From an uncultured Caulobacteraceae bacterium (lineage in GTDB: Bacteria; Pseudomonadota; Alphaproteobacteria; Caulobacterales; Caulobacteraceae), in the NCBI GenBank assembly GCA_903923135.1, contig CAIXWN010000188.1, positions 1-52,353 of the forward strand: 52,353 bases of DNA, written 5' to 3'. Shown here piece after piece: positions 31,585 through 41,860 of this stretch. A model generated the notes under the pieces. The model was not told the DNA's origin. It searched no databases and saw only the letters and a program-made list of their open reading frames with translations. Numbering within the stretch: the first letter of the stretch is position 1; each line of letters begins with the position of its first letter. Both the position numbers and the translations under genes were made by a program.

Positions 31585-33051
31585 CTAGCCCTTCGCGGCC
31601 AGCCTCTCCTCCCGCAGCTGGCTGCGCCGCACCTTGCCGGCGTCGTCGCGGATGTTCCCTTCGACGAACTCGAAGCTGCGCGGCTGCTTGTAGGTCACCA
31701 GCCTCGCGGCCAGGTGGGTGCGCAGGTCGGCCTCGCTCAGGGCCCCCCGGGGCTGGACGATGGCGTGGATGCGGTTGCCCAGGTCGTCGTCGGGCAGGCC
31801 GATCACCGCGCTGGACTGCACCGCGGGGTGTTCGTCCAGGGCCGATTCGATCTCGGCCGGATAGACGTTCGAGCCGCCCACCAGGATCATGTCGGTGCGC
31901 CGGTCGGCCAGATAGAGGAAGCCGTCCTCGTCGAACCAGCCGATGTCGCCCAGGGACTCCCAGCCGTCGTCGATGGCGCGCGCCTCGGCCCCGCGGTAGG
32001 CGTAGGTCTTCGGACCCCCCGGCGTCGGGCGCATGAAGATCTCGCCGATCTCGCCGGGCGGCAGGGTGTTCCCGTGCGCGTCCACCGCCCGCATCTCGCC
32101 GAACACCGGCCGGCCCACCGAGCCGCGATGGGCCAGCCACTCGGCCCCGGTGATGATCGTCGCCGACTGGCCCTCGGTGCCGCCGTAGAGCTCCATCACC
32201 ACCTCCGGCCCCAGCCAGTCGATCCAGGCCTCCTTCAGCCAGGCGGGGCAGGGGGCGGCCAGGTGCCACATCATCCGCAGCGAGCGGATGTCATAGGCGG
32301 CGCGGGTCGCCTCCGGCAGCCGCCATATGCGGCCCATCATCGTCGGCACCAGATAGATCCAGCTGCCGCGATGGTCGTGGATGGCCTTCAGGGTCGCCTC
32401 GGCGTCGAACCGCGGCAGGATCACCAGGTGCGCGCCCATGTTGATGGCCGACACCGAGGTGACGAAAGGGCCGTTGTGATAGAGAGGCCCGGGCATGATC
32501 GCGGTGTCCTCGCCGACGATCCCCCAGGCGCCGATGCCGCCCTCTTCCGGCGGAATGAACACCCCCGGCGATCCCGACAGGATCAGCTTGGGCCGGCCGG
32601 TCGAGCCGCCGCTGGTGGGAGCCTTGTAGACCGGCGCGATGGTGTCCGGCGGCGGCGGGCCGCCGGGGTCGAGGGCCAGCAGCGAGGTCACGTCGTGGCG
32701 CGGTTTGTGGCTGTGCAGGCCCGGGCCGGCGATCAGGATCGGCGTCTGCGCCAGGTCCATCACCGCGTCGGCCTCGGCCTGGGGCAGGCGGTGCGAGATC
32801 GGCTGCGGCGTCGCCCCCATCTTCCACAGGCCCCAGCACGCCTCGATGAAATCGACGCTGTTGCTCAGGCCGATGGTCACTAGGTCGCCGTGCCTCACCC
32901 CCGCCGCCAGCAGCCCGCGGGCCAGGGCGTCGGTGCGCGCGTCCAGCTCCGCCCAGGTGACAGTGCGATCCTTGTCGGACACCGCCGGTCGCTCCGGCTG
33001 GGTCGCGGCGTGATGGCGCAGGCGCGCGCCCAGGGAAATCGGTTCGTTCAT
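31585..33051 (-). CDS. AMP-dependent acyl-CoA synthetase/ligase
   Basis: The product has 488 residues of the ANL superfamily. The phosphate-binding loop is a variant, TSGGSTGRPKLILSG (near residue 148). Adenine-site ELYGGTEGQSATII lies near 290, the hinge is in LYLADRRTDMILVGGSNVYP, and the catalytic lysine should be in DDAGKVRRSQL near the end. It activates a carboxylic acid as acyl-AMP and then as CoA thioester, the entry step for the oxidation enzymes encoded alongside. The ATG at 33051 is clear. It converges on the CoA-transferase gene with 19 bp between stops. Confidence 0.92.
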   Translation of the reverse strand: MNEPISLGARLRHHAATQPERPAVSDKDRTVTWAELDARTDALARGLLAAGVRHGDLVTIGLSNSVDFIEACWGLWKMGATPQPISHRLPQAEADAVMDLAQTPILIAGPGLHSHKPRHDVTSLLALDPGGPPPPDTIAPVYKAPTSGGSTGRPKLILSGSPGVFIPPEEGGIGAWGIVGEDTAIMPGPLYHNGPFVTSVSAINMGAHLVILPRFDAEATLKAIHDHRGSWIYLVPTMMGRIWRLPEATRAAYDIRSLRMMWHLAAPCPAWLKEAWIDWLGPEVVMELYGGTEGQSATIITGAEWLAHRGSVGRPVFGEMRAVDAHGNTLPPGEIGEIFMRPTPGGPKTYAYRGAEARAIDDGWESLGDIGWFDEDGFLYLADRRTDMILVGGSNVYPAEIESALDEHPAVQSSAVIGLPDDDLGNRIHAIVQPRGALSEADLRTHLAARLVTYKQPRSFEFVEGNIRDDAGKVRRSQLREERLAAKG

Positions 33052-33270: not shown

Positions 33271-33588
33271 ATGAAGCGGACCACCATCCTGTTGCCGCTG
33301 TGCGCGCTGGCCCTGTCCGGCTGCCTGGCCAACACGGCCCCGGCCGACGTGGCGCTCGCCGATCCCCGTCACAAGACCGATATCGGCATCGGCCTCTGGC
33401 ATGGCGTGCTGGCCCCGGTCACCTACCCGGTCGAGGCCCTCCGGCACGCCGTCCATCCCGGCTCGGCCGAGCGCTGGCACGTCTATGAGAACAACAACGC
33501 CGGGCTTCCCTACGGCGTCGGCTTCTACGGCGGCCTCATCGCCTGCCTGGTGTTTCTGCTGGGCAGGCTCTTCGCCTGGCTTCGCTAG
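33271..33588 (+). CDS. Small lipoprotein with C-terminal membrane helix
   Basis: The product has 105 residues. The signal MKRTTILLPLCALALSGC ends in a lipobox (LSGC), so lipid attachment at Cys18 is predicted. A polar middle part (RHKTDIGIGLWHGVLAPVTYP) is followed by a hydrophobic helix near the end (GGLIACLVFLLGRLFAWL), giving a protein anchored at both ends. The ATG at 33271 has a GAGGAGGG ribosome site. No family is recognised. In the inferred ancestral order it converges on the SDR gene with 20 bp between stops; today it faces the SDR fragment. Confidence 0.75.
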   Translation: MKRTTILLPLCALALSGCLANTAPADVALADPRHKTDIGIGLWHGVLAPVTYPVEALRHAVHPGSAERWHVYENNNAGLPYGVGFYGGLIACLVFLLGRLFAWLR

Positions 33589-33608: not shown

Positions 33609-33971
33609 CTATCCTCGCCGCGTGCCCACCGGATGGCTCGAACTCAGCCCCCCGTCCACCACGATCGCCTGGCCGTTGACATAGCTGAAGTCGTCGCTGG
33701 CCAGGAACAGGGCCGCCCCGGCGATCTCGCCGGGCTCGCCGCCGCGACGCAGGGGGTTGAGCTGGCCGATGCGGTCGTCGGCGCCCCGCTCGCGGGCGCT
33801 CCTGTAGATCGGCGCGGTCATGCCGGTCTCGATCAGGCCGGGGCAGATGGCGTTGACCCGGACATTGGTACCGTAGAGCACATTGGCGGTGGTCTGGACG
33901 AGGTTGATCACCCCGGCCTTGCTGGCGCTGTAGGGAATGCCGCCGGCGCCCGAGCGGATGCCCGCCACCGA
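33609..33971 (-). pseudogene. 3' fragment of a short-chain dehydrogenase
   Basis: This reads as the last 120 codons or so of an [23 protein letters not shown] (with the catalytic Tyr and Lys), [15 protein letters not shown] and the C-terminal [18 protein letters not shown]. The Rossmann half and the catalytic Ser are absent, so it cannot be a working dehydrogenase. It matches the 3' end of the intact SDR at 40140-40928 without gaps over 363 bp, diverging abruptly at 33972. Its ATG at 33968 is accidental. I take it as the displaced or duplicated 3' end left by the helicase-island insertion. Confidence 0.85.
33609..33971. repeat. Left copy of 363-bp direct repeat
   Basis: Same orientation as 40140-40502 with no gap. 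By hand I count roughly 31 mismatches (about 91% identity), only about four of them in the 230 bases next to the junction. Confidence 0.85.
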
Positions 33972-34117
33972 TCCAAGTCGTCACGCAATGTTCGCGGGAC
34001 TCCAATGTGTCCCTTAATGGGTGCTCCTGCACACACATCGTCATCGCAAGTCTGGAAGTTGACGCCGTATTGGCCCCTGCTCGGCCTATGAACATCATCC
34101 CTGATGACCTTGACCAG

Positions 34118-34131
34118 CGGTTTACAAACCG
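34118..34131. promoter_or_regulatory. Inverted repeat upstream of the helicase-nuclease gene
   Basis: CGGTTT-AC-AAACCG lies 33 bp before the ATG, just after a -35-like TTGACC (34110-34115). It could be an operator overlapping the promoter. The -10 is not clear. Confidence 0.4.
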
Positions 34132-34164
34132 GCACCAATTACTTGCGGTGCGGTGGGGAAATTA

Positions 34165-37100
34165 ATGGACGGCTTGCGGGTCGAAATCACCGCCGTTCTG
34201 GCTCCGAAGGTGACTTTCGCGTCGCACCAGAACTCAGTTCCGATTCTGCGCGAGCTGAAGATCGAAAATCCCCGTGACGAGGCGTTGAACGACCTCATCG
34301 TGGAGATCGAGGCCGACCCGCCGATACTGGAGACTCGCCGCTGGCCGATTGATCGGATCGGCGGCAATTCGACGACCGAAGTGCGTGATCTCGACGTGAG
34401 GTTGAACGCGGGCCTCCTGCTCGATTTGCATGAGGCAATGACCGCGGCCGTGACGGTGCTCGTTCAGAAGGGCGATAGCGTACTGGCGCGGCAGTCCTAT
34501 TTGCTCGAAGCCCTCGCCCAGACCGAATGGGGCGGAGCGGGAATGCCGGAGCTCCTCGCGGCATTCGTTATGCCCAATGACCCGGCTGTCGAGACCTTGT
34601 TGAAAGGCGCCGCGAAGATTCTGAACCGGGCAGGGAAATCCGACGCGCTGAATGGTTACGAGTCGGGGTCGGCAACCCGAATCTGGGAGATCGCGTCCGC
34701 GATCTGGTCGGCTGTTGCGGGGCGCGGCCTCACCTATGCTCTGCCACCTGCCAGTTTCGAAACGGAAGGACAGAAGATCCGGACGCCGTCGGCGATCCTG
34801 TCGGGCGGCTTGGCGACCTGTCTCGACACCGCGAGGCTGTTCGCGGCCGCGCTGGAACAAGCCGGCCTCAATCCCATACTCGTGTTGACCAAGGGTCATG
34901 CCTTTGTGGGCGTGTGGCTTCAGCCAGAACCGTTCAACAGCATTCTGACTTATGAGGCGATGACGCTGAGAAAGCGCGTGAAGCTTCAGGAACTGGTGGT
35001 GTTCGAGACAACGCTCGCGACACAGAAGCCCCCACCTTCGTTCAGCATCGCGGTGGCTGCCGCGGACCGCCAGATAGCGGAGGAAAAGGAGGCCGAATTC
35101 GTCCAGGCAATCGATATTCGGCGCGCCCGGATGCAGCGGTTGCGCCCGCTGGCGCTCAGGCTGGATTCGATCGGCGAGAGCCCGTCTGAAGCGCTTCACA
35201 CGGAAGAGGGGTTCGAAGAGGCGCCGCTGCTTCCCAGCTTCGCCCCGCGCCAGACGGAACCGGACCTGGATGCGGGGTCTGACCGCCTGCGGCAATGGCG
35301 CCGTAAATTGTTGGACCTCACAGTGCGGAACCGTCTGCTCAATGTAACGCCGAGCAAGACGGCTCAGCGATTGATCTGTCCCGACCTGGCTAAACTGGAG
35401 GACAGACTGGCAGGTGGCGCCAAGATCAGGATTGCGGCGGTGCCGCCTTTGGACTCTGCGGGGCGTAGCGCGGATTTGCATGCCCACCGGACCGGTGAGC
35501 AGCTTCTGGAGGCCTATGCCCGAGACGCGCTTGAGCGTGATGAGGTTCTCTCCCCCCTGGCTGAGAAGGACCTGCAGGCGGCCCTGGTCGAACTCTATCG
35601 CAAGGCCCGGCTAGACCTTCAGGAGGGCGGAGCGAACACGCTGTTCCTTGCGGTTGGCTTGCTCAGTTGGAAGCGTGAACCCGAAGATGTTCGCGCTTTT
35701 CGGGCGCCGCTGATCCTTTTGCCCGTCTCCCTTGAACGCAAGACCGCACGCTCAGACGTGCGCATGATCGCTCACGAAGACAAGGCGAGGTTCAATGGGA
35801 CATTGCTCGAGCTGCTGCGGCAGGATTTCGAGATTCATGAGTTAGACCCGCTCGAGCAGAATCTGCCACAGGACGATGTGGGAGTGGACGTTACTGGCGC
35901 CTTGGACTCGGTGCGCAGGGCCGTGCGCGACATGAAGGGGTTCGAGGTTATCGAGGAGGTCATGCTAGGCACCTTCTCGTTCTCCAAATACCTGATGTGG
36001 AAGGATTTGACCGACCGCGCGGAGCAACTCTCGGGGAACCGCGTCGTCAAACACCTGCTTGAGTCTCCACGCGACCCATTTCCGTACGATTCGGAAATCC
36101 CAAAACCCGGGTCGCTCGATGCTTTGATCGACCCGGGCTCGATCTTCACGCCCTTGCCTGTCGACTCCTCTCAGCTTGCGGCCGTGGTCGCGTCCCACAG
36201 GAGATGTGACTTCGTGCTCGATGGCCCGCCGGGCACGGGGAAGTCCCAAACGATCGCGAACATAATCGCGCACAATCTGGCCCTGGGTCGCAAGGTTCTG
36301 TTCGTTGCCGAAAAGATGGCCGCGCTGAACGTGGTCTACAGCCGCCTGGAGGCAAATGGCCTGGGCGCGTTTTGCCTGGAGCTTCACTCGAACAAAGCCA
36401 ACAAGGCCGACGTGGTTCGTCAACTCGGCCGGGCCTGGGATACCCAGGAGGATAACCCTGCTGAAATTTGGACCAGAGACTCGGCCCGACTGAAGGCTCT
36501 ACGCGATGAATTGAACGCGGTAGTCCGATTGCTTCACCAACCCCAGCCGGGGGGGTTGACGCTTCATCAGGCCATCGGTCGGGTCGTTCGTGACGGAGGG
36601 CCGCAGACTCCGGAATTCTCGTGGCCAACAGATCGAGGCCCAGACGAGTCGACACTGGTCCGCATGCGCGACGTAGCGCGCAGGCTTGACCTCAACAGAG
36701 CCAATACTGCGGAACTCGATCCGAGAAGCTTCGCCTGGATTGGCGAGGATGATTGGTCTCCAGGGTGGCAGACGACGGCCTTGGCTGCCTGTGCGGACGC
36801 TTCTGAGGCAACCCGTGAATTGGAGGGCGCTTTCGCTGCTCTCTGCGATCTGCTGAAGGTGCAGTTCGCTTCCGATCCGAGGACACTAAATTGCTTGGAG
36901 ACCTTGGCAGTGGCGCTGTGCGCCGCACACGGGCTCAACCTCGAGTTCGCCTTTACGCCAAATTACGCCGCCGCCTCTTCCGCCGCGCTCTCGGGCTTGG
37001 CTCACCTGCGAGCCTATCGCGCTAGTGAAGGCACGCTTTCGACGACCTATAGGCCAGACGCTTGCCGAACGGTGCCGATCGATGCGCTTAAGACGCGGTG

Positions 37101-39993
37101 GCGCGATGCGGATCGCAAGGTCTGGCCCCTGTCAGTCTTCGCCAAAAGCGCCGTGCGCAAGGGCTTGGCGACAACAGGCGGCTGCAGCTCGCGGCCGGAT
37201 CCAGCCAAGGATTTGCCCCTCCTAGAGGGCATGCGTACGGAACGTCTGGCGCTGGACGGGCACGAAGATCTCGCCCGACGCGTCGATGGTTGGGCATCGT
37301 TGAGCACTAATGCAGAAGCGATCGAACGGTCGCTTCAGATCGCAGCCGACCTGCTTGCCGCGACTGCCGGGCTGGCAGGATCCACGGATGAGTTGATCTC
37401 CCTGAGAGTGGCCGTGCGCGGTCTCGTGCTTGAGGGCAACGAGCTTCTCGCGGATGGGATGCCGGTCCGCGGCGCTTTGGAGCGCTTTGAGCGCGCGTGT
37501 ACCGTTCAGAGCGCTGCCTTTCGCCGATTCCGTGACGCCGCGCGGACGCCTGCCGAAGTCGGCGGCGAGACTCAGCTGGCAGAAATGCGGACGGCGCTGA
37601 ATGCGCTGCTCGCAACGCGCACCGCGATCAACGCGTGGTGCGGCTGGGTCCGGGTGCGCAGGGAAGCCATCGATCTCGATCTCACACCGCTCTTGCAGGC
37701 CGTGGAGGATGGAGCGCTGGGCGATTCAGGCGCAGTTCGCGCATTCGAGGTCGGCTATGCGCGCTGGCTGGCGAATACGGTGATGGACCGCGAACCCGTC
37801 TTGCGGCGGTTTCTGCCGGCCGAGCATGACGCAAAGATCGCCGACTTCCGTAAACTCGACGACGAACTCGCCTCCCTCTCTTCTCTGGCGATTCGCGCCA
37901 GGCTCTCCGGAAAAATTCCTCGCAAGGATGACAAGCGCCTGCCTCGGGGCTACGGCGCGCTGAAATATCAACTGGGCCTCAAGGCGCCCCGAAAGGCGCT
38001 CCGCGAGCTCGCGGCTGAGATGGGGGACACCCTTACGACCCTCACGCCCTGTTTGCTGATGAGTCCCCTGTCAGTGGCGCAATACCTACCTGCGGACAGC
38101 GAACTGTTCGATCTGGTGATCTTCGACGAAGCGTCCCAGATCACACCATGGGACGCCGTCGGCGCCATTGCCCGAGGCAGGCAGGTGATCGTGGCAGGCG
38201 ACCCGAAACAAATGCCGCCGACCAACTTCTTTAATCGCAGTGCCGGGGGCGATGATGACGGGGGCAGCTCAGATGACGCTGACCAGGAAAGCGTGTTGGA
38301 GCAATGCCTGAGCGCGGGACTTCCTCAACATCGGCTGACCTGGCACTACAGGAGCCGCCACGAGAGCCTGATCGCGTTCTCGAACCAGCGTTACTACGAT
38401 GGCGAGTTGGTCACCTTTCCCGCAGCCGTCACCCGCGAGAGCGCTGTAAGCCACGTCAAGGTCGATGGGGTCTATGCGAAGGGAAAGGGCAGAACCAACG
38501 CGAACGAGGCCAAGGCGCTCGTGGCTGAGGTGGTTCGACGTCTGACTGACCCCGCGTTCGTTGATGAGAACGGGAAGCGCCTGACGCTTGGAGTTATCAC
38601 GCTGAACAGCGAACAGCAGAAGCTGGTCGAAGACCTGCTGGATACCGAGCGCCAGAGGCGGCCGGCAATCGAACCCTATTTCGATGAGTCGCTCGCGGAG
38701 CCGGTGATCGTCAAAAACCTTGAAACGATCCAGGGCGATGAGCGGGATCTGATCCTGCTAGGAGTCGGCTACGGGCCCGACACGCCGGAGGCCAAGGACA
38801 TGTCGATGAACTTCGGCCCCTTGAACAAGGATGGCGGGTGGCGGCGCTGGAACGTGGCCGTGACCCGCGCCCGCCGCGAGATGATGCTGTTCACATCCTT
38901 TCCTGCCGGCATGATCGACATCAACCGCAGCGGCGCCAGGGCGGTGAAGGATCTGCGCGACTATCAGGATTTCGCTATCCGTGGACCAAGAGCATTGGCG
39001 CAGGCCGATCACGGGTCCTTGGGAGGCTACGAGTCCCCCTTCGAGCAGGCTGTAGCGCGCGGGCTACGTGACAAAGGATGGGTTGTCACACCCCAGATTG
39101 GAGCCTCACGTTTTCGGATAGACCTGGGTGTCGTCCACCCTGACCGACCCGGAGATTACCTGGCTGGGGTCGAGTGTGACGGCGCGACATATCACCGAGC
39201 CGCCACGGCTCGCGACCGTGACAAGGTTCGGGAAACGATCCTGCGCGGCCTTGGGTGGGACTTGGTGCGCGTCTGGTCCACGGACTGGTGGCATGATCGA
39301 ACCGGCGCCCTGCGAAAGCTCGACTTGCGCTTGCACGATCTTCTCAAAGCCAATCGTCAAGCCGCGGTGGCGGTTGCGAATGGCCGCGACACCCACGTCG
39401 CAGAAGCGCCCGCCGGCGAACAAAACGATTCCACACCAATGCTCTCGCCGCGCTTCGCGCGCGATGGGGGCGCTCCGCCATCGGTCAGTCCTGTCGCCAT
39501 CGCCGGCGCCAAATTCCGTAGGGCTGACCTTTCTCGATTTGAAGGGCTCCTGAAGCCGGATCAGTTCTATGAACCCGCCTACAATCCCACCTTGCTGGAA
39601 CTCACCGCCTATATCGTGAAGGTCGAGGCCCCGTTGCGCGACGACCTCTTGGTGGAACGTGTCGCTCGCGCGCACGGCTTCGCCCGCTCCGGGCGGGCGA
39701 TCCGGGAGCGGGTGCTCACGCTGAAGGGCCGACGCTTCCTCCGCTACAAGGATGCCGTGGGAGGCATGTTCGTTTGGCCCGACTCGGCGTCGCGGAAGCT
39801 GTGGTCGACGTTTCGGGTGCCCGCTACCGAGGATGACTTCCGGCCGATCGAAGATATCTGTTCGGAGGAATTGCGGGCGGGCGCAGCGGGGCTATCGGTG
39901 GAGGACGTGCCCTGGGAGCTCTCTCGGCTATTGGGGATTCGCCGTCTCAGTGCGGCCGCGCGCCAACGCATTGAGGCCGCGCTTGCAGGGTAA
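34165..39993 (+). CDS. Giant SF1 helicase-nuclease, DUF4011/DUF3320 type (putative defence)
   Basis: The product has 1942 residues. A transglutaminase-like segment lies near 205-255 (Cys219 in LATCLDTARLFAAAL, His245 in LTKGHAFVGVW). DUF4011 begins near 375 (WRRKLLDLTVRNRLLN). The SF1 (Upf1/Dna2-like) helicase follows: Walker A GPPGTGKS at 687-694, DEAS at 1321-1324, GDPKQMPPT near 1345, TWHYRSRHESL, IQGDERD, and VTRARR near 1566. A Vsr-like nuclease (REase_MTES_1575 type) follows with Glu1627, Asp1653 and ECD at 1670-1672. DUF3320 closes the protein from about 1810. All key residues appear intact. The ATG at 34165 has a GGTGGGGA ribosome site. Proteins of this build occur in defence islands, so anti-phage or anti-plasmid action on foreign nucleic acid is inferred. 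No partner gene is present. Confidence 0.9.
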   Translation: MDGLRVEITAVLAPKVTFASHQNSVPILRELKIENPRDEALNDLIVEIEADPPILETRRWPIDRIGGNSTTEVRDLDVRLNAGLLLDLHEAMTAAVTVLVQKGDSVLARQSYLLEALAQTEWGGAGMPELLAAFVMPNDPAVETLLKGAAKILNRAGKSDALNGYESGSATRIWEIASAIWSAVAGRGLTYALPPASFETEGQKIRTPSAILSGGLATCLDTARLFAAALEQAGLNPILVLTKGHAFVGVWLQPEPFNSILTYEAMTLRKRVKLQELVVFETTLATQKPPPSFSIAVAAADRQIAEEKEAEFVQAIDIRRARMQRLRPLALRLDSIGESPSEALHTEEGFEEAPLLPSFAPRQTEPDLDAGSDRLRQWRRKLLDLTVRNRLLNVTPSKTAQRLICPDLAKLEDRLAGGAKIRIAAVPPLDSAGRSADLHAHRTGEQLLEAYARDALERDEVLSPLAEKDLQAALVELYRKARLDLQEGGANTLFLAVGLLSWKREPEDVRAFRAPLILLPVSLERKTARSDVRMIAHEDKARFNGTLLELLRQDFEIHELDPLEQNLPQDDVGVDVTGALDSVRRAVRDMKGFEVIEEVMLGTFSFSKYLMWKDLTDRAEQLSGNRVVKHLLESPRDPFPYDSEIPKPGSLDALIDPGSIFTPLPVDSSQLAAVVASHRRCDFVLDGPPGTGKSQTIANIIAHNLALGRKVLFVAEKMAALNVVYSRLEANGLGAFCLELHSNKANKADVVRQLGRAWDTQEDNPAEIWTRDSARLKALRDELNAVVRLLHQPQPGGLTLHQAIGRVVRDGGPQTPEFSWPTDRGPDESTLVRMRDVARRLDLNRANTAELDPRSFAWIGEDDWSPGWQTTALAACADASEATRELEGAFAALCDLLKVQFASDPRTLNCLETLAVALCAAHGLNLEFAFTPNYAAASSAALSGLAHLRAYRASEGTLSTTYRPDACRTVPIDALKTRWRDADRKVWPLSVFAKSAVRKGLATTGGCSSRPDPAKDLPLLEGMRTERLALDGHEDLARRVDGWASLSTNAEAIERSLQIAADLLAATAGLAGSTDELISLRVAVRGLVLEGNELLADGMPVRGALERFERACTVQSAAFRRFRDAARTPAEVGGETQLAEMRTALNALLATRTAINAWCGWVRVRREAIDLDLTPLLQAVEDGALGDSGAVRAFEVGYARWLANTVMDREPVLRRFLPAEHDAKIADFRKLDDELASLSSLAIRARLSGKIPRKDDKRLPRGYGALKYQLGLKAPRKALRELAAEMGDTLTTLTPCLLMSPLSVAQYLPADSELFDLVIFDEASQITPWDAVGAIARGRQVIVAGDPKQMPPTNFFNRSAGGDDDGGSSDDADQESVLEQCLSAGLPQHRLTWHYRSRHESLIAFSNQRYYDGELVTFPAAVTRESAVSHVKVDGVYAKGKGRTNANEAKALVAEVVRRLTDPAFVDENGKRLTLGVITLNSEQQKLVEDLLDTERQRRPAIEPYFDESLAEPVIVKNLETIQGDERDLILLGVGYGPDTPEAKDMSMNFGPLNKDGGWRRWNVAVTRARREMMLFTSFPAGMIDINRSGARAVKDLRDYQDFAIRGPRALAQADHGSLGGYESPFEQAVARGLRDKGWVVTPQIGASRFRIDLGVVHPDRPGDYLAGVECDGATYHRAATARDRDKVRETILRGLGWDLVRVWSTDWWHDRTGALRKLDLRLHDLLKANRQAAVAVANGRDTHVAEAPAGEQNDSTPMLSPRFARDGGAPPSVSPVAIAGAKFRRADLSRFEGLLKPDQFYEPAYNPTLLELTAYIVKVEAPLRDDLLVERVARAHGFARSGRAIRERVLTLKGRRFLRYKDAVGGMFVWPDSASRKLWSTFRVPATEDDFRPIEDICSEELRAGAAGLSVEDVPWELSRLLGIRRLSAAARQRIEAALAG

Positions 39994-40139
39994 GCGGCCG
40001 TAACGGGCCTTTTCGCTGGATGCGGAACACCGGAGCCACAAATGCGCCGCGCCGTTCTTGAGTTTAACGAGACGGGCGTTGGCGCCTTCGCAGGCCTTTA
40101 GGACAGGCGTCCGAAAAGCGGCGACTGCACGCTCGCTGC

Positions 40140-40502
40140 CTACCCCTTTCTCACCCCCACCGGATGGCTGCTCGACAACCCCCCATCCACCACGATCGCC
40201 TGGCCGTTGACGTAGCTGGAATCGTCGCTGGCCAGGAACAGCGCCGCGCCGGCGATCTCGTGCGGCTCGCCGCCTCGGCGCAGGGGGTTGAGCTGGCCGA
40301 TGCGGTCGTCGGTGCCCCGCTCGCGGGCGCTCCTGTAGATCGGCGCGGTCATGCCGGTCTCGATCAGGCCGGGGCAGATGGCGTTGACCCGGACATTGGT
40401 CCCGTAAAGCACATTGGCGGTGGTCTGGACGAGGTTGATCACCCCCGCCTTGCTGGCGCTGTAGGGAATGCCGCCGGCGCCCGAGCGGATGCCCGCCACC
40501 GA
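40140..40502. repeat. Right copy of 363-bp direct repeat
   Basis: This is the 3' part of the intact SDR gene and pairs with 33609-33971 at a constant offset of 6531 bp. Similarity stops sharply at 40502/40503. Confidence 0.85.
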
Positions 40503-40928
40503 GGCGGTGCAGATGATCGAGCCCTTGCCCGCCGCCCGCATGATCGGGCTGGCGTGCTTGATGACCAGGAACGGGCCGATCAGGTTCACCCGCAGGATCT
40601 CGGCGAAGAAGGCCGCGTCGATGTCGGGCATCTGCGTCGCCCCGCCGCTGATCCCGGCGTTGGCGTAGATGGCGTCGAGGCTGCCATGATTGGCGACGGC
40701 GAAGTCGATCAGCGCCTTCACATCGGCCTCGTCGCCGGCGTCGCCGGTGACGGCCAGGGCCGTTCCGCCGGCCGCCGCGATCAGGGCGGCGGTCTCGTGG
40801 GCGGCGTCGGTCTTGTCGAAACAGACGACCCTCGCGCCCTCCTGGGCGAACAGCCGCGAGGTGGCCCGGCCGATGCCGCTGCCGGCCCCGGTGATGACCG
40901 TCGAACGGCCTTCCAGACGACCTGCCAT
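40140..40928 (-). CDS. Short-chain dehydrogenase/reductase, intact copy
   Basis: The product has 262 residues with a classical SDR fold: [15 protein letters not shown] cofactor loop near residue 14, Asp38 region CFDKTD, NAGISG near 93, Ser in CTASVAG, Tyr-Lys in YSASK, and C-terminal [10 protein letters not shown]. The acidic residue after beta-2 favours NAD. The ATG shares one base with the TGA of the upstream SDR gene (TGATG), so the two are coupled. The last 363 bp are repeated at 33609-33971, on the far side of the helicase gene. The 3' end here may have been supplied by the inserted element. Confidence 0.93.
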
Positions 40929-41860
40929 CAGCCGGCCGCCGCGTCGGCGGGCTTCGGGGTCGGCGGCAGGGGCAGACGGTTCAGCGAATAGAACTTGTCC
41001 TGCATGTTCGGTAGCGCCTCGGAGAGGATGGTCCCCACTGTCCAGCCCTCGGCCTTGGTCTCGGTCTGGATCGGGCGCGGCTGGCTGTAGAGGATGATGT
41101 TCTCGCCGCTGGAGCCGAAGATCTGGCCGCTGACGTGGCGGGCGGCGTCGGCCAGCAGGGCGACGCTGAAGCGGGCGGGCTGGTCGGGGCGGATGGCCTC
41201 GGCCATCTGCTGGCGGCGCGCGGCTTGGGCCTCGTCCCGCACCGGCACCGACTGGGTCATCCGCGTCCAGGCCACCGGGGCCAGGCAGTTGCAGCGGATG
41301 TTCTTCGCCGCGCCCTCCATGGCGATGATCCGCGACAGGCCGGCGATGCCCATCTTGGCGGCGCCGTAGTTGGTCTGGCCGATGTTGCCGATGATGCCCG
41401 AGGTGGAGGTGTAGAGCACATAGGCGCCGTCCTCCTGGTCGCGGAAATGCTCGATGGTCGCCCGGCAGACGTTGAAGGTGCCGCGCAGGTGGACCTCGAT
41501 CACCGCGTCCCAGTTCTCCGGGGTCATCTTGTGGAACATGGCGTCGCGCAGGATGCCGGCCGGGTTGATCACCGCGTGCAGGGCGCCGAAGCTGTCCAGC
41601 GCCTGTTCCAGCATGCCCTGGCAGGCCTTCAGGGAGGTGACGCTCTCGGTGTTGTGGACCGCCTCGCCGCCGGCGGCGCGGATCTCCTTGGCCACAGCCT
41701 CGGCCGGGCCGACCGATCCCTCGTCGCCGCCATGCAGGCCGCCGCCGAGGTCGTTGACCACCACCCGGGCCCCCTCCCGGGCGGCGATCAGGGCGCATTC
41801 GCGGCCGATGCCGTTGCCGCCGCCGGTGATCAGCACGACCTTGCCTTCAAGCACACCCAT
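40928..41860 (-). CDS. SDR of the 17-beta-HSD4-like group
   Basis: The product has 310 residues. The start [20 protein letters not shown] and [17 protein letters not shown] are typical of the (3R)-hydroxyacyl-CoA dehydrogenase part of 17-beta-hydroxysteroid dehydrogenase type 4 and its bacterial relatives. Catalytic residues are Ser in YTSTSGI and Tyr-Lys in YGAAK. The usual NNAG is NPAG ([10 protein letters not shown]), a change of the catalytic-tetrad asparagine region. A C-terminal tail of about 50 residues extends past the core. It oxidises a hydroxyacyl-CoA or steroid-like alcohol, by inference. The ATG at 41860 lies 43 bp after the MFS stop, and the next SDR gene overlaps by one base. 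Confidence 0.9.

Follow-up and report, generated by a model that had tools for sequence, protein, structure and literature searches.

Gene architecture and setting of the inserted gene

How does a long gene of foreign appearance come to lie between an intact chromosomal gene and a second copy of that gene's own 3′ end, with no integrase at its side? The question is raised by a 52,353-nucleotide stretch of DNA, hereafter the window (contig CAIXWN010000188.1, assembly GCA_903923135.1), from an uncultured Caulobacteraceae bacterium whose genome is fragmented into 279 contigs. A first-pass annotation had described an island bracketed by a direct repeat of an SDR gene's 3′ end, and its account of the geometry is borne out. 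Positions 33609..33971 and 40140..40502 align without gaps at a constant offset of 6531, both copies start at the SDR stop codon, and the homology stops at 33971 and 40502. The copies are identical at 332 of 363 positions (31 mismatches), and chance similarity is ruled out by an E value of 1.3e-152 over a 350-column core. The right copy (40140..40502, minus strand) is the 3′ end of an intact gene, SDR2 (40140..40928, minus strand; 262 aa, adh_short_C2), which is the last gene of an MFS-SDR1-SDR2 run and has SDR1 (40928..41860, minus strand; syntenic in several relatives) as its upstream neighbor. The left copy (33609..33971, minus strand; 363 bp), which we refer to as a scar, is a 3′-end fragment of SDR2 with its stop codon at the low-coordinate end and an open frame of 119 codons.

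The DNA between the two copies begins at a non-homologous junction at 33971/33972 and consists of a non-coding interval (33972..34152), one long gene (34153..39993, plus strand; start GTG 34153 or ATG 34165), and intergenic DNA (39994..40139) that runs up to the stop codon of intact SDR2. For the two intervals, no homologues were found outside the window genome among the collected loci. That the long gene looks foreign, as had been proposed, is confirmed by composition: its GC3 is 0.729 vs 0.93-0.95 in SDR1, SDR2, MFS, and ligase, and the GC content of the island is 0.62 vs 0.70-0.71 in the flanks. Between the scar and an AMP-binding ligase (31585..33051, minus strand) lies a small lipoprotein-like gene (33271..33588, plus strand), which was named by eye and has no Pfam or NCBIfam match; Pfam supports the names of the ligase and MFS genes, as it does those of the P450 and ACAD genes discussed below.

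The ProA family of DUF4011 helicase-nucleases carries a domain set of DUF4011, AAA helicase-type domains, and a C-terminal nuclease-like domain. This set is complete in the window protein, which contains DUF4011, AAA_11/AAA_12, an MTES_1575 endonuclease-like domain, and DUF3320 (PF13195, PF13086/PF13087, PF18741, and PF11784). The protein scores 2092.7 bits against NF058533 (NCBIfam antiphage_ProA; cut-off 1500) over residues 22-1929, and 1093.2 bits against PADLOC PDC-S37. The 'helicase gene' of the first-pass annotation is thus present in the island, but by profile score it belongs to a named defense family, ProA. Judged by these matches it is an ordinary member, much like the other DUF4011 helicase-nucleases of the ProA (NF058533), Hhe (NF042953), and PDC-S37 types and unusual only in its setting, and it may serve in phage defense. 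Our literature search found no paper behind the family name ProA, nor one for PDC-S37.

Empty sites in relatives of the window genome

If the ProA gene was inserted, sister genomes should carry one SDR and no helicase gene, while an intact SDR with a separate fragment in a genome lacking the helicase gene would speak for an older duplication. A single full-length SDR2 orthologue (73-96% identity), with no second piece at E <= 1e-40, is present in 10 of the 15 same-genus genomes, and ProA is absent from all 15 at E <= 1e-100. This is the state that the first-pass annotation had predicted, and it supports its proposal that the insertion took place at a gene's 3′ end and regenerated it. The opposite state is seen in none of the 15, two of which are unreadable, and an SDR duplication older than and unrelated to the insert is ruled out by the single copy in 10 of 15 genomes, with two undecided (G012 and G004, with SDR2 pieces at contig ends only) and three in which no SDR2 orthologue was found (G002, G011, and G013). 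The threshold used here overlooks short pieces; in G015, G009, G014, and G010, a finer search of the gap after SDR2 for shorter pieces of its end found none. In G012 (L050, L051) and G004 (L052), SDR2 is interrupted by contig ends near codons 168-174 and 125, and a second copy lost in assembly could be hidden there.

SDR2 directly adjoins the AMP-binding ligase in the same orientation in three relatives (G008, G001, and G006), which we take as the ancestral state, and the SDR2 fragment and ProA are therefore a derived state at a variable site. The idea that removal of one repeat unit would restore an operon converging on the lipoprotein gene is not favored by this comparison, as the ancestral neighbor of SDR2 was probably the ligase rather than the lipoprotein-like gene, for which no protein match was found in 13 fetched genus loci. 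Other genes occupy the gap between SDR2 and the ligase in G015, G009, and G010. In G014, other genes occupy the DNA from a CoA-transferase-like gene (named by eye) to SDR2; a search for the ligase was negative in the fetched stretch of G014 and in the other remaining fetched loci. Extra DNA is also present in the SDR1-SDR2 and MFS-SDR1 gaps of G010 and G001 (L046:9597-13270, L047:4936-7135), so the whole SDR region is variable.

Uneven divergence along the repeat

The mismatches between the two window copies are distributed unevenly, a feature that the first-pass annotation did not mention, with 3 in the first 180 nt, on the codon-143 side, vs 28 in the last 183 nt (simulated p ~1e-5). Over the same first 180 nt, 11 differences separate the intact SDR2 copy from that of the nearest relative, G015, and the codon-143 side is therefore not simply conserved. 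A simple recent duplication of the resident SDR2 can be rejected, as the stop half has diverged about as much as between species. The mosaic fits one-sided recombination, in which the codon-143 side would be resident in both copies while the end of the intact gene would be imported. A switch along the repeat in which copy is the odd one was not significant (permutation, 0.07).

Recurrence of gene-end scars at other targets

The flanks of 76 ProA-like loci (the window and L083-L157, with L083 and L112 apparently drawn from one contig) were surveyed for repeats, and 17 of them had flanks too short to judge. Flank repeats at E <= 1e-3 were present at 10 of the 59 judgeable loci, and only the window and L100 had repeats longer than 300 bp. 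The shorter ones were tRNA-linked at L097, L106, and L117, and also occurred at L089, L111, L120, L136, and L150. In a set of 25 loci with about 1.5 kb of flank, five of them with flanks too short, no repeat of at least 30 bp was found. L100, the second large case, lies in G307, a one-contig genome of the same family, and reads in order as an intact P450 gene, a 1976-aa DUF4011 protein, and a P450 3′ fragment (660/677 identical). The DUF4011 protein is PDC-S37/Hhe-like, with scores under the ProA and Hhe cut-offs.

The P450 site was then examined because L100 had turned up there, and its rate of occupation is for this reason not an unbiased estimate: among 100 genomes of the G307 genus, 10 have a closely related P450 (at least 91% identity; cut at contig ends in G786 and G758), and four of these 10 have an intact P450, an insert, and a P450 3′ fragment. 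The cargo and the length of the scar differ in each. G307 combines its Hhe/PDC-S37-like insert with a scar of 677 bp. In G185, the insert carries Septu and type I R-M genes (PtuA, PtuB, and type I methylase and restriction subunits, with a 646-aa ORF whose Methylase_S match is barely above cut-off), and the scar of about 610 bp is pieced together from 65-353 and 289-674 on two unjoined contig ends. G766 has MqsR/MqsA (MqsRA) and a 194-aa protein with a scar of 219 bp, and G770 has a GmrSD_N/NsnA-like protein and a HEPN-like protein under its Pfam cut-off with a scar of 166 bp. Among the matches listed in a DNA search of the 100 genomes, high-identity second P450 pieces occur only in these four. 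G797 is an empty site, and no P450 fragment was found in G287, G736, G063, or G797; none was found in G758 or G786 either, but their P450 copies are cut by contig ends. Eighteen fetched, more distant genomes with a P450 at 73-81% identity also had no fragment (for G021, the downstream side was read in L205). In G287, Cas9 and Cas1 genes lie behind P450 (L202:7781-14063), at a site that holds other defense genes in relatives.

At a third gene, ACAD in G185, three cassettes stand in series, and each is followed by a scar, of 217, 151, and 82 bp, with 95%, 91%, and 80% identity to intact ACAD, respectively. One of these cassettes contains transposase fragments. In G063 and G287, the DNA that follows the third scar comes immediately after ACAD, and these two genomes are therefore empty sites. 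In G736, only ACAD residues 9-60 match (L256:2364-2518), beside DNA that follows ACAD elsewhere, and the gene looks truncated. The fourth target is a CMD gene in the one-contig genome G059, where the gene, an insert, and a CMD 3′ copy of 347 bp are followed by a 201-aa ORF and a DUF4011 gene (L099:3624-13105). This insert is phage-terminase-like with native-like GC3 and is not a defense cassette; the 201-aa ORF and the DUF4011 gene begin right after the CMD 3′ copy.

An intact gene, an insert, and a 3′ fragment that ends at or near the stop codon are thus found at four different target genes in the family, and defense or toxin-antitoxin genes are present in 7 of the 9 inserts. This recurrence bears on the concern that the assembly joined strain variants of one population and so produced a spurious repeat in the window contig. 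The fragmentation of the window genome into 279 contigs and the 8.5% difference between the copies would suit such an artifact, but the same arrangement appears in G307 and G059, each a one-contig genome, and in G185, which is in about 20 contigs, and we regard a misassembly as very improbable.

In a control scan with a threshold of at least 120 bp and at least 80% identity, repeats were found at 4 of 21 loci in the order's ProA set, which includes the window, at 5 of 55 ProA loci, and at 4 of 8 P450-site loci (one of these, L196, at ACAD, and another, L201, being a downstream repeat described at the end of this text). Random stretches gave 1 of 20 (L247, at paralogous genes), and hsdR loci of the family gave 0 of 20 (20 of 24 matches fetched, including two truncated by contig ends). 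Together, the hsdR and random results indicate that scars are not a general mark of defense genes, and the hsdR result and the 18 distant P450 genomes without a fragment indicate that they are not a general rule.

A probable route by recombination into gene ends

Taken together, we consider it probable that the ProA unit entered beside SDR2 by recombination within the 3′ end of SDR2 and that the old end was left behind as a scar. The donor, the route, and the order of events, which we infer from sequence comparison, could be as follows. The incoming DNA would have consisted of another strain's SDR2 end with ProA behind it. By recombination within the SDR2 sequence common to both, this import would be linked to the resident gene, which would stay whole with its end partly imported; at the other edge, the import would be attached inside the resident SDR2 without homology, or else a circle would integrate by one crossover. 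In both cases, the resident SDR2 3′ end would remain beyond the insert as a scar, and repeated rounds of this process at a single gene would give rise to scar-separated cassette stacks. That 3′ ends are the ones found at these sites can be explained if selection keeps the last gene of the operon intact. In 118 genomes, a search for a donor in which ProA immediately follows SDR2 gave none.

The scatter of the upstream breakpoints and the negative integrase search among the ORFs favor homologous recombination in the gene end, either with its second junction made without homology or as one crossover of a circle, over a fixed attachment site. The nine scars share repeats that end at or near the stop codon, their upstream breakpoints lie at scattered positions, and no common core was seen by eye across them. 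As the first-pass annotation had noted, no integrase is seen in the island, where ProA is the only long gene; in all the inserts, the ORFs searched, which included some but not all of the small ones, yielded no integrase. In the window, one junction lies in shared homology and the other lacks it, which is the pattern of homology-facilitated illegitimate recombination. Of the two routes, the mosaics of the window and G307 incline us slightly towards the one-sided one; in G307, the P450 repeat has 1 mismatch in its first 376 columns and 16 after. The mosaic is clear in these two cases only; G185 P450 (7/289 and 29/386), G766 (12/223, spread), and G770 (17/170) are without a clear mosaic. Regarding the machinery, Ku turned up in 1 of 7 genomes, the gene-transfer-agent marker GTA_TIM was found in none of the 7 (the control, Caulobacter vibrioides, was positive), and ComEC is present in all 7 and also in 10 of 14 controls.

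The prophage e14 of E. coli has one known integration site, in icd, and a comparable origin could be imagined for the window: site-specific integration into a gene's 3′ end by an element that brings a substitute end, with the integrase since lost or acting from elsewhere. The gene-restoring direct repeat of a 3′ end is present in the window, and a recombinase gene in the element was not found. Relatives of the inserted gene lie beside tRNA genes with a flanking repeat of the tRNA end at L117 and L097 (with an integrase-like ORF, named by eye) and at L106, at tRNA-Leu with a 68-bp repeat, where no integrase was seen. Precedent also comes from e14 itself, which has the same geometry and a similar divergence, with a 165-bp 3′-end duplication containing 12 nucleotide exchanges in E. 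coli K-12, and a putative integrase gene, intE (PMC11148124). Against such an origin stand the searched insert ORFs, among which there is no integrase and, in one ACAD cassette, transposase fragments, and the lengths of the scars, which vary within one gene (166, 219, about 610, and 677 bp at P450; 82, 151, and 217 bp at ACAD), so that breakpoints differ within P450 and within ACAD where a fixed attachment core would be expected. As to the earlier remark that the repeat is far longer than usual attachment cores, the core reading is disfavored because the 3′ fragments at other genes vary much in length and no common core is seen. Long gene-end repeats do have precedent in the 165 bp of e14/icd (PMC11148124). 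We consider site-specific integration unlikely here. At L106 (L106:2987-10369), the ProA gene is accompanied between the 68-bp tRNA-Leu repeats by a pair matching Xre/MbcA/ParS and RES.

A different history would have each site begin with one old duplication, with a single ancestral scar shortened by deletions and the cargo swapped by ordinary homologous recombination. The scars do all lie to one side of the gene and reach to the stop codon or close to it, the P450 scars of G766 and G770 have the same downstream DNA, and alleles have been exchanged between genomes, as the G307 scar is 273/275 identical to the intact P450 of G770 over columns 345-620. However, the three serial scars with different cargo at G185 ACAD and the existence of four different target genes argue against erosion of one duplication, as does the near identity of the window and G307 copies over their first 180 and 376 nt, which are closer than the orthologues compared. 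We therefore give this history little credence, as an improbable account, and prefer repeated entry by recombination into gene ends.

Relation to known systems

Recombination into gene ends, as we propose it, has parts in common with several described systems. Like e14 in icd, it would involve insertion into a protein gene, an intact gene with an imported 3′ end, and a displaced 3′ fragment on the far side; unlike e14, which is a prophage with its own putative integrase according to the account in PMC11148124, the inserts here are small cassettes in which no integrase was detected, and the fragment lengths vary within one target. For the T6SS orphan-immunity arrays of V. cholerae, homology-facilitated illegitimate recombination was proposed by the authors (PMC5361080), and the likeness extends to homology on one side with non-homologous joining on the other, and to additions that push older modules and 3′ ends downstream. 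In V. cholerae, the region preceding the toxin module serves as the anchor, with displacement of the old toxin gene (PMC5361080), whereas the anchor here would be an unrelated metabolic gene that is kept intact, and the cargo is mostly anti-phage or toxin-antitoxin. The core defense hotspots of P. aeruginosa likewise hold variable defense systems between conserved chromosomal genes, and the study raises homologous recombination as a means of transfer while leaving to future work the question of how the hotspots are built (PMC10250203); unlike those hotspots as described there, where gene-end scars do not figure, the events here are marked by scars. Homology-assisted illegitimate recombination has also been discussed for variable segments in E. 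coli (PMC2884548). Among the literature titles and abstract openings covered by our search, with subscription papers and bioRxiv mostly outside that coverage, no description of gene-end scars around defense cassettes was found.

The same layout around other inserts in relatives suggests that these bacteria can acquire defenses by recombining into ordinary gene ends, keeping a scar each time. Gene-end scars would then be a direct sequence signature of integrase-free events, one that records the insertion, the target gene, the order, and possibly the donor, and that can be searched for in any genome collection. More speculatively, and with doubt on our part, 3′ ends might serve as both landing and exit sites for integrase-free defense cassettes. 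The scars would form a record of acquisition in which the most recent adjoins the intact gene, and a circle released by recombination of a scar with the gene could take its own homology arm to the next cell.

The DNA downstream of P450 has repeats of its own. The first 150-230 bp of this downstream region, J, recur two or three times in L197, L200, L201, L202, and L203, and are possibly a second repeat-marked insertion site. Small ORFs lie between the J repeats, and a nearby one is a Phd/YefM-type antitoxin by Pfam (L202).
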